Shown here piece by piece: positions 126-28,017 of a DNA stretch of 36,486 nucleotides. Origin of the DNA: Verrucomicrobiia bacterium (GTDB lineage Bacteria; Verrucomicrobiota; Verrucomicrobiia; Verrucomicrobiales; DEV007). The position numbers and the translations under genes are program-made. The stretch covers positions 2,097 to 38,582 of the forward strand of contig JAGROX010000055.1 of the NCBI GenBank assembly GCA_020440025.1, written 5' to 3'. The notes under the pieces were generated by a model. It was not told the DNA's origin and searched no databases. It worked only from the letters and a program-made list of their open reading frames with translations. The number at the start of each line of letters is the position of its first letter. Within the stretch, counting starts at the first letter, position 1.

Positions 126-2582
126 ATGTTGTCTTTTCCACTACCTTCTTATCGGAGATCAGCATGGGCGGGCCTGATAGCCCTCGCGCTTTTTTCCGGG
201 AACGCCGCCTCAGCTGCCGAGCCTCTGCCCGAAACGTTCACCACTTTTTTCAACACCTACTGCATCGATTGCCACGACACGGAAACAGCGAAGGGAGATT
301 TTCACATCGATTTCCTGAAAGAGGTGGAGACACCGACTGATGCAGAATACTGGCAACTGACCCTGGACAATCTCCACCTCGGCGAGATGCCGCCGGAGAA
401 AAAGAAGCAGCCCAGCGCCGCCGAAATCGAGGCAATCACCACCTGGATCGAGGATCGACTCGCCGGGGCCGCGACGAAGCTGCGAGGCCACACCGGCGAA
501 GTCGTCTTGCGACGCCTCAACCGGACGGAGTATGAACATACCATCGAAGATCTGTTCGATGTGCGAGGCGATTTTGCCGAGGGTTTTCCCGAGGACGCGA
601 AAGAAGACGGCTTCGACAACATCGGTGCGGCCCTGATGATGTCGGCGGAGCAGTTGGACTCCTATTTCGCGGCGACGGATTTCATTCTCGATCGAGCCAT
701 TGTGACGACCGATCGACCAGAGACGAAGTCGGTGTGGTTTACCCTTCGAGACATTCGCCAACGGGAGGAGGAAAAGCGCAAGGAACGCGAAGCCCGCGAA
801 AAAGAGAAGGGCTACACGCCCACCAAGACGGAACTCGAGCGGCAAAAAAAGGCGAAGGAAAGTGGCAACTATGGCAGCCCCTACTTTCCCGATCATGGTG
901 AGGAGGACGCGCTCATCGCAGTGAAATACACCAAGCCCTCGACTCAAGATGATTTTCGAGTGCGCGAGCCGGGTTGGTATCGTTTCGCTTTTGCCGGTTA
1001 TGCTGTCCGCAGCCCGGACAAGCCGGTGCGGGTGCAAGTGGTCCATGGATCGGCCAACAAGGAGGAGATTCCGACCATTGCTGACGTGGTCCAGTTGGTG
1101 GAGGGCGAAGCGTCGTCCCACGAGTATCGGGTTTATCTTCAGCCGAATCAGCGGGTCTGGCTCGAATTGGTCGATGGAACCAACTGGCTGCCTGGCTCGC
1201 GTATTCTGGAGAGCGAGGACGTTGCCGCAGCCATCCGCTTCATCGAAATCGAGGGGCCGCTTATCGATCAATGGCCGCCGCGTGGGCATCGGTTGCTGCT
1301 GGGTGAGCGTGAGGCGGATTCCTTTTCGGACGACGAAATGCCGAACATCATCGGAGACCTCGCGCCGCACCTTTTCCGCCGTCCCGTTGCTGAATCGGTG
1401 GTGCACGACTATGCCAACTTTTATCAGTCCATGCGCGTTGCAAATGAAGCACCGCTCAGTGCCTTCAAGCTCACCGTCAAAGCCATGATGGCCTCTCCGC
1501 TTTTTCTCTACCACGTCGAGCCCGGGGAAAGTCCCGACGCCTATGCCCTCGCCAATCGGCTGTCGTATTTCCTGTGGCGATCCTCGCCTGACGCGAAGCT
1601 CCTGCAACTTGCCGCCAGTGGAAAACTCACCGAACCGGAAACCCTGAAGGCCGAGGTCGAACGCCTTCTCGCCGATGACAAAGCGGAACGTTTTCTCGCG
1701 GATTTCGTCGGGCAGTGGCTCAAGGTCGACCTCGTCGGCGAAATGCAACCGGACTCGAAACTCTACCCGGAGTATGATCCGCAGTTGGAGATGGCGATGG
1801 TCGAAGAGACGCGAACTTTTGTCCGCGAAATGCTGGAGAAAGATGAACCGCTCTCGAACCTGATCGATTCGGATTGGGCCATGCTCAACGATCGTCTCGC
1901 CGAGCACTACGGTATCCCCGGCGTCGCGGGCAACCATTTCCGCCGCGTCTCTCTTGATAAAACAAAAACGGTCCGTGGCGGATTGCTCACCCAGGCGAGC
2001 CTTCTCAACGTGACTTCCAACGGCACGACCACTTCGCCCGTCGTTCGTGGTGTCTTCGTGCTCGATCACCTTCTCGGCAACCCCGCGCCTCCGCCGCCGC
2101 CTGACGTCCCGCCGATCGAGCCCGATATCCGGGGTGCTACCACGATTCAGGAACAACTGGAGAAACATCGTGAAATCGCCCAGTGCGCCAGTTGCCACCA
2201 GAAGATCGACCCCTACGGTATCGCTCTGGAAAATTTCGATGTCATCGGAGGATGGCGGGAGAACTACCGTGCTCTCGATCCGTCCAACAATCCCAAATAC
2301 CCAAAGCTGGTCGACGGCAAACCGGTCTCCGCCAGCGACACCATTCCGCGGCTGGGCGCCTTCGCCGATTTCCGGGAGTTTCGGCAACTGCTGCTCCAGG
2401 ACGAAGGACTGGTTTATGAAAACCTCGCCCACAAGTTGGCCACGTATGCGCTCGGCAGAAAGATGGATTTCGCCGACGAGCCCGACCTGCGTGCCATTGC
2501 CACCGATACAAAAGGAAGTGGTGGCGGGATGCGGACGATGATCCACGGGTTGGTAGCAAGCGAACTCTTCCGACGACCGTGA
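126..2582 (+). CDS. Exported Planctomycete-type cytochrome c protein (PSCyt1/DUF1587/DUF1595/DUF1592/DUF1588/DUF1585), pair 1
   Basis: An 818-residue periplasmic protein of the PSD/PSCyt family, of unknown biochemical activity. A Sec signal peptide (LIALALFSGNAASAA) precedes a first haem c site, C46-I-D-C-H50, followed by the family's MPP motif (GEMPPEKKKQP). A DUF1587 segment (LRRLNRTEYEHTIEDLF) follows near residue 135. A beta-rich domain lies at about 280-380, then DUF1595 (LFRRPVAES), DUF1592 ([17 protein letters not shown]), and DUF1588 with a second site C687-A-S-C-H691 in the typical CHQKIDPYG context. The C-terminus is DUF1585 (LATYALGRK). The ATG at 126 is preferred over an upstream GTG at 72 because it places the signal peptide close to the N-terminus and avoids overlapping the preceding stop. 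It is 26 bases upstream of its DUF1552 partner, probably one transcript. An electron-transfer role is inferred from the two haem sites. Confidence 0.9.
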   Translation: MLSFPLPSYRRSAWAGLIALALFSGNAASAAEPLPETFTTFFNTYCIDCHDTETAKGDFHIDFLKEVETPTDAEYWQLTLDNLHLGEMPPEKKKQPSAAEIEAITTWIEDRLAGAATKLRGHTGEVVLRRLNRTEYEHTIEDLFDVRGDFAEGFPEDAKEDGFDNIGAALMMSAEQLDSYFAATDFILDRAIVTTDRPETKSVWFTLRDIRQREEEKRKEREAREKEKGYTPTKTELERQKKAKESGNYGSPYFPDHGEEDALIAVKYTKPSTQDDFRVREPGWYRFAFAGYAVRSPDKPVRVQVVHGSANKEEIPTIADVVQLVEGEASSHEYRVYLQPNQRVWLELVDGTNWLPGSRILESEDVAAAIRFIEIEGPLIDQWPPRGHRLLLGEREADSFSDDEMPNIIGDLAPHLFRRPVAESVVHDYANFYQSMRVANEAPLSAFKLTVKAMMASPLFLYHVEPGESPDAYALANRLSYFLWRSSPDAKLLQLAASGKLTEPETLKAEVERLLADDKAERFLADFVGQWLKVDLVGEMQPDSKLYPEYDPQLEMAMVEETRTFVREMLEKDEPLSNLIDSDWAMLNDRLAEHYGIPGVAGNHFRRVSLDKTKTVRGGLLTQASLLNVTSNGTTTSPVVRGVFVLDHLLGNPAPPPPPDVPPIEPDIRGATTIQEQLEKHREIAQCASCHQKIDPYGIALENFDVIGGWRENYRALDPSNNPKYPKLVDGKPVSASDTIPRLGAFADFREFRQLLLQDEGLVYENLAHKLATYALGRKMDFADEPDLRAIATDTKGSGGGMRTMIHGLVASELFRRP

Positions 2583-2608
2583 GTATTGGAATTCAGCAAC
2601 GATCGAAT

Positions 2609-3835
2609 ATGAACAGAAGAACCTTCCTCAAAGCCTCCGGAGTCACTCTCGGACTTCCTTGGTTCGAGTCCCTAGCCAATGAAGCGAGGAGCGGCGATAC
2701 GCCCCAGCGACTTCTCCTGTTCTGTCTGCCGCTGGGCCTCTATCGCGATGCGATCATTCCCTCCGAAACGGGGGCAGGATACCAAACCAGCGAGTATCTC
2801 TCCATCATCGACGAGTTCCGCGATCATTTCACGATCTGCTCCGGTCTCGAGCATCCCGACGTGAACGGCGGGCACTCGGCCGAGGCGCGGATCTTTACCG
2901 GAGTTCCCTCGAACAAGCGGAATGTCCGATCGCTCGATCAGTATCTCGCCGGAAAAATCGGCAGCCAGACCCGTTTTGACTCACTGCCGCTTTCGGCGGG
3001 ACGCAATATTTTCAGCTGGACCGACGGGGGAACGATGGTCCCGGCGGAGAGCAAGATGTCTCAGGTTTACGCCAGGCTTTTCGTCGACGAAGGCGGTGCC
3101 AATGCCGAAAAAATGTTGCGCGAGATTGGCCACGGGAAAAGCATCACCGATCTCATCCGTCGTCAGGCCGAAGCTCTGCAGCCGAGTCTTTCCGATTCCG
3201 ATCAAAACAAGCTGGAGGAATACTTCGAGTCAGTCCGGGAGACTGAGCGGCGCCTCGTGAAATCAGAGAGTTGGGTCCACACCCCGAAGCCCACGGTTGA
3301 TGTGCCGATGCCACAGGATCCCGCCAGCAGCGCCGAGATCGTCACCCAGATGCGCAACGTCTGCGACATGATCCATCTCGCCTTCAAGACTGACTCGACC
3401 CGGGTCATCACGTCGGGCTGGTTTCAGCAGAACAACGTCAACATCCAAGGTGTCAGCAACGGTTATCATCCACTCTCACACCACGGGATGGACCCCAACA
3501 ATATTGGCCAGCTGAAACTGATTGAGAAAGCCTTCTTTGAGGAGTTGAAGATTCTGCTGACCAATCTGATAAACGACAGGGAAGGTGACCGGACTTTGCT
3601 CGACAGGACCACCATCGTAGTGACCTCAAATCTCGGCAACGCTTCGAACCACTCCAACAAGGATCTGCCCGTGCTGCTGATTGGTGGGAACTACGATCAC
3701 GGCCAACACCTCGCCTTCGAACCAGGCACTGAGCCCTTGAGCAATCTCTACCTCAGCGTGCTGAATCAGTTCGGTTTCGCCGACAAGGAATTCGGTAGCT
3801 CGACCGGCCCGTTGAAAGGGCTCGAATTTTCCTGA
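2609..3835 (+). CDS. Tat-exported DUF1552 (HXXSHH) protein, pair 1
   Basis: A 408-residue protein of the DUF1552 family. It starts with a textbook twin-arginine signal (NRRTFLKASGVTLGLP), so it is probably folded in the cytoplasm, perhaps with a metal, before export. The family motif is intact: H287-P-L-S-H-H292. Conserved family segments include LLLFCLPLG near residue 40 and ICSGLEHPDVNGGHS near 90. The start at ATG 2609 places the RR pair at residues 3-4; a GTG ten codons earlier would overlap the previous stop and is less likely. It directly follows the two-haem cytochrome protein, the usual arrangement for this family in Planctomycetes and Verrucomicrobia. Its activity is unknown. Family members are thought to resemble alkaline-phosphatase/sulfatase-fold proteins, which I cannot test here. 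Confidence 0.88.
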   Translation: MNRRTFLKASGVTLGLPWFESLANEARSGDTPQRLLLFCLPLGLYRDAIIPSETGAGYQTSEYLSIIDEFRDHFTICSGLEHPDVNGGHSAEARIFTGVPSNKRNVRSLDQYLAGKIGSQTRFDSLPLSAGRNIFSWTDGGTMVPAESKMSQVYARLFVDEGGANAEKMLREIGHGKSITDLIRRQAEALQPSLSDSDQNKLEEYFESVRETERRLVKSESWVHTPKPTVDVPMPQDPASSAEIVTQMRNVCDMIHLAFKTDSTRVITSGWFQQNNVNIQGVSNGYHPLSHHGMDPNNIGQLKLIEKAFFEELKILLTNLINDREGDRTLLDRTTIVVTSNLGNASNHSNKDLPVLLIGGNYDHGQHLAFEPGTEPLSNLYLSVLNQFGFADKEFGSSTGPLKGLEFS

Positions 3836-23495: not shown

Positions 23496-24893
23496 ATGAG
23501 TAAGATTTCCTTTCATTCCTTTGCCACTCCCACCCGACGCGAAGCGCTCTTTGGCCTCGGTGCGGGACTCGGATCCGTGGCTCTGACGTCGCTACTTCGT
23601 GGCGCAGAAATTCGTGAGGTGCATCATCCGGCACGGGCGAAGCGCTGTATATTCCTCATGATGGAGGGCGGACCGTCGCATATCGATACCTTCGATCCCA
23701 AGCCAGAACTCGCCAGGCAACATCTCAAGGCGTTCACCCGGAGCGGCGAAAAGGAGAGTGCCATGTCCTCGGGGAAGCGCTACTTCGTGAAGAGCCCTTT
23801 CGACTTCGAGAAGGCGGGCAAGAGCGGTGCCGACATCTCCACGGAGTGGGTTCATCTCAAGAAGCAGGTCGACGACATTTGTTTCTACCGCGGCGCCCAG
23901 GTAGATTCCGTCAATCATCCAACTGCTTGTTATCAACTCAACACCGGCAACCAGTTCGGTGGTGACCCGGGGGTGGGAGCTTGGGTCACTTACGGCCTCG
24001 GCACCCTCAATGATAATCTGCCCGGTTTCGTCGTTCTCCCAAGAACCAGCTATCCTCAGGGTGGCGCGGGAAACTGGTCGAACGGCTATCTCCCTGCGGA
24101 GTTCCAAGGAACGCCACTGCGCCCGGAGGGCAGTCCCATTCTCAACTTGAATCCACCGGCTGGCGTCACCTCTGAACGCCAGCGCAAGAATCTCGATCTG
24201 ATCGGTACGCTCAATCGTCAGCACCTGGCCGGACGTCCCGGTCGCGGCGAGTTGGAAGCCCGCATGGCGAGTTACGAACTGGCATACCGAATGCAGACTG
24301 AGGTGCCCGGTGTCCTTGATCTTGCTGGAGAAAAGCCAGGCACTCTGGAAGCCTACGGGATCGGGGATGCCAAGACCGACGACTTTGGGCGCAAATGCCT
24401 GCTGGCGCGGCGTCTGGTGGAAAAAGGAGTGCGATTTGTTCAGGCCTATGCCGGAAACTGGGACAGCCACGATTACATTCAGAAAGCGCATGGCGCCCTC
24501 ATTCGATCCGTCGACAAACCGATCGCGGCCCTGCTTCAGGACTTGAAGGAACGAGGCATGTTGGACGACACCCTGGTGGTTTGGTGTGGAGAGTTCGGAC
24601 GGACACCCGACAACGGATTGCGCGGAGGCGATCAATCCTATGGCCGCGATCACAACGCCAAGGCGATGGCGATGTGGTTTGCCGGCGGAGGAGTCAACGC
24701 GGGGCACACGGTCGGGGCGACCGATGACATCGGGGCCGAAGCTGTCGACTGTGTTCATCACATTCGCGATGTTCACGTGACGCTTCTTCATCTGCTGGGA
24801 CTCGACGACAACCGCCTGACCTACTTCCATGCGGGCCGTCACAAGCAGCTATCGCAGTTTGGTGGAAAGGTGATTGGGGAACTGTTGGCTTAG
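23496..24893 (+). CDS. Tat-exported DUF1501 protein, pair 4
   Basis: A 465-residue DUF1501 protein, a family related to the alkaline-phosphatase/sulfatase fold. A twin-arginine signal (TPTRREALFGLGAGLGSVAL) is present. Diagnostic segments are CIFLMMEGGPSHIDTFDPK (near 50-70), LARRLVEKGVRFVQAYAG, LDDTLVVWCGEFGRTPD and the late GRDHNAKAMAMWFAGGG. ATG 23496 lies 2 bases after the stop of the DUF1553 cytochrome; an upstream in-frame ATG at 23448 would overlap that gene and move the RR motif away from the N-terminus. Like the DUF1552 proteins it is exported folded through Tat while its haem partner uses Sec, so the two would meet in the periplasm. No substrate is known. Confidence 0.92.
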   Translation: MSKISFHSFATPTRREALFGLGAGLGSVALTSLLRGAEIREVHHPARAKRCIFLMMEGGPSHIDTFDPKPELARQHLKAFTRSGEKESAMSSGKRYFVKSPFDFEKAGKSGADISTEWVHLKKQVDDICFYRGAQVDSVNHPTACYQLNTGNQFGGDPGVGAWVTYGLGTLNDNLPGFVVLPRTSYPQGGAGNWSNGYLPAEFQGTPLRPEGSPILNLNPPAGVTSERQRKNLDLIGTLNRQHLAGRPGRGELEARMASYELAYRMQTEVPGVLDLAGEKPGTLEAYGIGDAKTDDFGRKCLLARRLVEKGVRFVQAYAGNWDSHDYIQKAHGALIRSVDKPIAALLQDLKERGMLDDTLVVWCGEFGRTPDNGLRGGDQSYGRDHNAKAMAMWFAGGGVNAGHTVGATDDIGAEAVDCVHHIRDVHVTLLHLLGLDDNRLTYFHAGRHKQLSQFGGKVIGELLA

Positions 24894-25113
24894 GCCTTCC
24901 CGCTTTGTCGCACACTCTTTGGAGAGGCTCGTGGTGGAGTTGAAACTTCCTCGGGCGTACGCGGCAACAGGGAATCAGTTCGTCATCGGCAGATAGTCGC
25001 CGGATACGTCAGTCCGGGACTGAGCGCCAACGAGTCGACACCGTCGCCACCATTGCTGCCTTCAAGGGAGTTTCAGCGCGGATGTTTTCCGCTTTTCCTT
25101 TATTGGAATTATC

Positions 25114-25158
25114 AGACCGAGTCTTTTTCTGGACATTGTCTAAAAAACGATCTAGTCT
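25114..25158 (+). promoter_or_regulatory. Three tandem GAC-N3-GTC-type sites, 17 bp apart: likely Fur-family operator
   Basis: Just before the fur-type start codon (25165) three related short inverted repeats occur in register. AGAC-CGA-GTCT is at 25114-25124, GGAC-ATT-GTCT at 25131-25141, and CGAT-CTA-GTCT at 25148-25158. Their centres (25119, 25136, 25153) are exactly 17 bases apart, and every copy keeps GTCT on the right. The last copy ends six bases before the ATG, which would let a bound protein block transcription or translation start. Autoregulation by the adjacent Fur/PerR-type protein is an inference; the sequence differs from the Escherichia coli Fur and Bacillus PerR consensus boxes. 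Confidence 0.5.
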
Positions 25159-25164
25159 AGAAAA

Positions 25165-25581
25165 ATGCACGACCCGGCCACCCTGCTTCGCGAGCATCGC
25201 ATTCCCGTCACTGCCCAGCGCTTGGCGGTGCTTCGGGCGGTTTCCCGACGACCCCATAGCACGGCGGACGCCATCGCCGAAGTCGTTCGAGCAGACATCG
25301 GTGCCATTTCGCGCCAAGCCGTTTACGACGCCTTGGGAATGATGGTGAACAAAGGGCTCCTCCGGCGCATTCAACCCGCCGGGTCTCCGGCCCTCTACGA
25401 GAATCGAGTGGGGGACAATCACCATCACGTCATCTGTCGTTCCTGCGGAAAAACAGCCGATGTCGATTGCGCGGTTGGAGAAAGGCCATGCCTGACGGCA
25501 GCCGACGACTCGGGTTTCCAGATCGATGAGGCAGAGGTGATCTACTGGGGCACCTGCCCTGATTGCCTCTCGTCGAAGTAA
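25165..25581 (+). CDS. Fur-family transcriptional regulator (PerR/FurA-like, linked to katG)
   Basis: A 138-residue metal-dependent repressor of the Fur family. The N-terminal winged helix spans about residues 1-80, with the recognition region [20 protein letters not shown]. The metal region [13 protein letters not shown] (84-96) follows. Two CxxC pairs, C91/C94 and C131/C134, form the structural zinc site. Position directly upstream of katG (51 bases) matches FurA-katG in actinobacteria and PerR-catalase units elsewhere, so a peroxide-sensing role (metal-catalysed His oxidation releasing repression) is more likely than iron-uptake control; this is inference. Regularly spaced inverted repeats at 25114-25158 are probable binding sites. 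Confidence 0.88.

Positions 25582-28017
<2,436 letters not shown>

Follow-up and report, generated by a model that had tools for sequence, protein, structure and literature searches.

A FurA-like box with abutting partner sites 17 bp away: a probable autoregulatory operator of furA-katG in a Verrucomicrobiia bacterium and its relatives

Autorepression by FurA has been reported in the literature, and the closest described systems are those of furA in Mycobacterium tuberculosis and furA1 in M. smegmatis. In the accessible portions of the reports used here, the mycobacterial FurA box is given as TCTTGACT-N-ATTCCAGA (PMC4218801), the 5′ end of the furA transcript of M. tuberculosis was mapped to the furA start codon (PMC2358910), and the furA transcript of M. 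smegmatis is leaderless, with a FurA site overlapping its promoter (PMC12713383). The locus of the present study shares with them the 8-1-8 dyad and the furA-katG gene order, and may also have the promoter overlap and a leaderless furA transcript. However, one box is described for mycobacterial FurA in those portions, whereas here there are abutting partners at -17 and/or +17, and the mycobacterial box has T at +2 where most of our loci have G (AGTCC). The FurS-CpeB and CatR systems of Streptomyces, described in the text available as Fur-like repressors of a catalase(-peroxidase) gene that are released by H2O2, also resemble furA-katG, but most Actinomycetes loci analysed here are without flanking sites. 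Stacking of Fur-family dimers on one operator, as proposed below, is known for Zur (PMC6103462, PMC5472717, PMC11077047), with three dimers at zitB of S. coelicolor and two at znuABC of Escherichia coli; in the accessible parts of these accounts the dimers occupy one shared box on 31–33 bp of DNA, or extend upstream with no defined repeat, whereas the array reported here consists of three separate, abutting 17-bp boxes. The arrays of E. coli Fur also give multi-dimer coverage of promoters, but are described, in the portions available, as overlapping 6-bp steps rather than abutting steps of 17 bp. Modelling of a PerR-like protein gave dimer contact at 18–21 bp and none at 14–16 bp, 17 bp being unlisted in the part of that report available (PMC3293774). 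No 17-bp FurA array was found in the accessible portions of the literature on multi-dimer arrangements, footprints and motif comparisons, and an earlier account, dealing with FurA autoregulation or with S. coelicolor furA-catC, is possible.

The window, that is, the whole stretch of 36,486 nucleotides that was analysed, carries furA and katG downstream of DUF1501 and PSD1/PSCyt genes, with the predicted operator region directly 5′ of furA (Table 1). FurA is most PerR-like in NCBIfam, and its nearest solved chains are PerR. It is a Fur-family member in which the CxxC pairs for structural zinc are present, together with histidine and acid ligands like those of PerR, as in a FurA/PerR-type sensor. 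The functional residues of FurS (Y59, H92, H93, C96 and C99) align with Y54, H87, H88, C91 and C94 of FurA, which are invariant in 13/13 aligned FurA proteins, as are the aligned H31, E79, H86, H88 and D99. The latter five correspond to the PerR ligand positions. The N-terminus of KatG (window 25633–25830) resembles a signal peptide, with a basic start, a hydrophobic run and AEAQ, and similar starts occur in L002, L003, L004, L006 and L007, which suggests that the catalase-peroxidase may be exported in this bacterial family; a simple hydrophobicity cut-off gave no clean separation of such starts (4/31 own-phylum loci).

Table 1. Features of the furA-katG region, in window positions
Feature	Position	Strand	Basis or remark
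S1, upstream flanking FurA-like dyad	25111..25127	+	centre 25119, contains AGACCGAGTCT
S2, main FurA box TCTGGACATTGTCTAAA	25128..25144	+	centre 25136
-35-like hexamer TGGACA in left arm of S2	25130..25135	+	inferred
S3, downstream flanking FurA-like dyad	25145..25161	+	centre 25153
-10-like hexamer TAGTCT inside S3, 17-bp spacer	25153..25158	+	inferred
furA, 138 aa Fur-family repressor, FurA/PerR type	25165..25581	+	Pfam FUR PF01475, 1e-16
katG, catalase-peroxidase, 51 nt 3′ of furA	25633..28017	+	TIGR00198, NF011635 above cut-offs

Three dyads with GTCT right arms (25121–25124, 25138–25141 and 25155–25158) lie at exact 17-bp intervals, centred at 25119, 25136 and 25153, all of them 5′ of furA and katG, as the initial annotation had stated. 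Their cores are AGACCGAGTCT (25114–25124), GGACATTGTCT (25131–25141) and the weak CGATCTAGTCT (25148–25158). In an 8-1-8 register they form 17-bp sites that abut, rather than overlapping in steps of 6 bp, so that the likeness to overlapping Fur polymer binding, drawn at first, is unsupported. By our own arithmetic, 17 bp corresponds to about 1.6 turns, which would place adjacent dimers about 140 degrees apart. The three sites are unequal, S2 being the main box and anchor: with a symmetrised matrix derived from orthologous main boxes, S2 ranks first among 36,469 window positions, S3 ranks 68th with a score of 1.6, and S1 ranks 234th with a score of -2.1, exceeding the 99% null threshold of -3.2. 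As a triple they score 17.9; among unrelated 17-bp triples of the window the highest score is -14.6. The pattern AGAC-N3-GTCT, which had been recommended for scanning the genome, was rejected as a genome-wide box: with up to one mismatch it has 16 matches in the window against 12.8 expected, and genome-wide it occurs at 44 sites, fewer than the 100 of its reversed control. Relaxing the pattern to TTGACNNANTCNA produced 806 and 772 matches, where the control had 607 and 574, and the resulting list was of no use. The lack of enrichment of AGAC-N3-GTCT speaks for a triple that arose by chance, with random flanking repeats; it makes the single-sequence claim weak, and the case had to rest on relatives. 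A hairpin resembling a terminator, GCGGATGTTTTCCGC plus a T-rich tail, lies at 25078–25092, after the DUF1501 gene and before the operator, and is weak (one found, 0.7 in shuffles). There was no Rfam match within window positions 24800–25800, and no relative was found among viral contigs.

Relatives were represented by 151 furA loci from the family, order and phylum and from named genomes, which gave 136 distinct upstream regions, of which 135 were usable (L060, truncated, was left out). An iteratively refined 17-column matrix found the box TCTTGAC[A/T]NAGTCCAGA at a score of at least 6, the value counted as a box, in 132 of the 135; L134, L145 and L169 fell below it and were left out, and L183, a filler region, was unused. 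The operator-like array proposed at the outset for fur-katG is supported, and in the window the orthologous box coincides with the middle repeat, S2. In every locus that allowed the test (112/112), katG lies next to furA, 3′ of it and in the same orientation. Across loci the box has the form of a FurA operator, an 8-1-8 dyad that differs little from TCTTGACTNATTCCAGA and is positioned at the promoter of furA, directly 5′ of furA and then katG. TCTTGACTNATTCCAGA is the consensus of our Actinomycetes set and is identical to the published mycobacterial FurA box. This set was drawn from furA matches in 135 Actinomycetes genomes, using 29 loci (L195–L223) and 40 further regions; L239, L242 and L254 had no tblastn match, and 64 of the 73 scored reached 6. 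In the sets from beyond class Actinomycetes the typical form has G at +2 (AGTCC) instead of T. The window's own S2 has diverged, with 10/16 positions matching the mycobacterial consensus, a value reached by 11% of shuffles. The box type is already known, being nearly the published mycobacterial FurA box; the box itself is thus not new, and the proposal of a new box for the peroxide regulator of this lineage gives way to a form of the known one. What these loci would add is range, taking the FurA operator beyond Actinobacteria and into Verrucomicrobiota, Planctomycetota and Acidobacteriota.

The consensus strings of the classical Fur and PerR boxes are TGATAATNATTATCA or TTATAATNATTATAA. Against these, the best fits of the window sites were 7/14, 7/14 and 9/19, no better than shuffles, at least 99% of which reached each of the 7/14 scores; the mismatch to both classical boxes that had been noticed at the outset therefore holds. 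This bears on whether the sites might instead belong to a further Fur paralogue or to a protein of the OxyR type, for the genome contains three further Fur-family matches (E 1e-8 to 2e-6). Such a protein is nevertheless a very improbable occupant: besides the poor fit of the classical boxes, it is furA that the box accompanies in different phyla, its sequence is similar to that published for FurA, and a sequence-only array model found no other such sites in the genome (150 of 447 candidates scored), the furA-katG operator being the only one at E<=10. That model was built from 63 loci, the 64 own-phylum rows less one row that contained an N. A FurA-type protein is the preferred occupant, and it looks to be a regulator dedicated to furA-katG.

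Conservation of the spacing in orthologous promoters had been set beforehand as the test by which the proposal could be refuted, and the 17-bp distance is kept, both in an offset scan and in site counts. When offsets of -45 to +45 were scanned with a symmetrised matrix built from main boxes only, -17 and +17 alone were clearly raised. Their mean scores were -9.9 and -12.6 (z 4.4 and 3.8), whereas the other offsets lie at about -31, and flank shuffling, repeated 100 times, left means of -29.6 (sd 0.8) and -29.9 (sd 0.9) at the two positions. Smaller rises at +-11 (z 2.3–2.4) we attribute to self-similarity of the box. A site was counted when its score passed a threshold set at the 99th percentile of those found at the remaining offsets. 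By this measure the own phylum (n=64) has S1 in 34 loci, S3 in 35, both in 11 and either in 58. The corresponding counts are 33, 16, 5 and 44 for the named set of mixed phyla (n=68) and 12, 3, 1 and 14 for class Actinomycetes with plasmids (n=64). The full triple is the exception, and the window belongs to that minority of 11/64. In class Actinomycetes, where FurA was studied, the main box is kept and the flanking sites are mostly absent. By the phylum given in record titles, which can be wrong for MAGs, either partner occurs in 15/19 Planctomycetota, 9/13 Verrucomicrobiota, 6/9 Acidobacteriota and 9/21 Actinomycetota loci. A further copy at +-34 was not found, scores above threshold occurring in 1 and 2 of 64 and in 4 and 2 of 68 loci. 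Since the 17-bp spacing in orthologous promoters lies far above shuffles, a chance origin is contradicted for the population, and it would be an exceedingly improbable account of the triple in the window.

It could also be argued that S2 is the sole operator, with a -10 element behind the +17 signal and, behind that at -17, an upstream promoter element rich in A/T. The columns of S1 and S3 are indeed far less conserved than those of S2, and TANNNT starts at +16 or +17 in 43/68 other-phyla loci, giving a 16–17 bp spacer. Yet in the own phylum TANNNT stands there in just 3/64 loci while a box-like S3 occurs in 35/64, so that S3 in that phylum is better called a FurA box than a -10 element. Offsets +-16 and +-18 are almost empty, with 0 to 2 loci in every set, and the S1 columns carry the dyad letters GA...TC, beyond plain A/T. 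A matrix-free measure of palindromy (base complementarity round each centre) has its maxima at -17 (z 3.5) and +17 (z 3.2) in the own phylum, and at -17 (z 5.3) in the other-phyla set, where there was no peak at +17 (S3). Taken with these observations, an operator consisting of S2 alone is unlikely.

A promoter may underlie the array. TTGA[CT] starts 6 bp 5′ of the box centre in 50/64 own-phylum and 44/68 other-phyla loci, and a strict sigma-70 promoter scan accepted no promoter in the window region, including the TGGACA / TAGTCT pair of Table 1. The start codon lies 28–30 nt 3′ of the box centre in 50/64 own-phylum and 55/66 other loci, and Shine–Dalgarno-like motifs are scarce (8/64 and 5/67, respectively). 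This spacing and the rarity of such motifs suggest that the furA-katG transcript may be leaderless, like the mycobacterial furA transcripts cited above, with its -35 and -10 regions lying under the predicted FurA dimers; the furA start codon (25165) would then be the likely 5′ end.

S1-S2-S3 probably forms the operator through which a peroxide-sensing repressor of the FurA type regulates its own gene, with dimers on S2 and on the abutting S1 and/or S3. Metal-bound FurA dimers would occupy the main box S2, overlapping the -35 region, and would also bind one or both of the weaker abutting boxes that lie 17 bp away, S1 on the upstream side and S3, which covers the -10 region, on the downstream side. 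One neighbouring dimer, bound cooperatively with the aid of the strong S2, would suffice to shut the leaderless furA-katG promoter, and peroxide, by inactivating FurA, would vacate the array, allowing FurA and KatG to be produced. The strengths of S1 and S3 are anticorrelated (Spearman -0.61 in the own phylum, n=64; -0.35 in the others, n=68; -0.21 to 0.15 at control offsets), which suggests that, as a rule, the main box acts together with a single partner. After tree correction the contrasts have r -0.36, a value as low in 0/500 tip shuffles, with a sign test p of 0.065, and the anticorrelation is then suggestive only. Its simplest reading would be that a strong main box requires one abutting neighbour, with either side sufficing. 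Whether this amounts to a fixed-geometry code undescribed in the Fur family, in which a strong FurA box is paired with a weaker abutting box exactly 17 bp away on interchangeable sides, is a more tentative matter, on which we lean slightly to the doubtful side; such a code would imply that dimers on different DNA faces touch across the 17-bp step, and that the partner has changed sides during evolution. The array would predict the number and position of bound dimers, and could serve as a simple test system for cooperative binding by Fur-family proteins where the spacing differs from the 6-bp overlap.

Genes for FurA of this type (E <= 1e-30) occur in 15/74 family, 65/386 order and 14/387 phylum genomes and are absent from the three other genomes of the genus, a patchy distribution that points to transfer or repeated loss. 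Two matches in other genomes of the family, G473 C414 (inspected for ORFs only) and G031 C17 (inspected for letters only), were rejected as extra array sites, being weak (E 0.004 and 0.008) and probably due to chance. In genome G056, also of the family, the same array is found at C52, as one further good site, 5′ of a second katG (L274, about 1500–3037) that has no recognisable full furA and is 65% identical to the window katG over the part seen. This second katG is possibly a decayed furA-katG copy, and the residues VTAQR there, on our own inspection, may be a remnant of furA.
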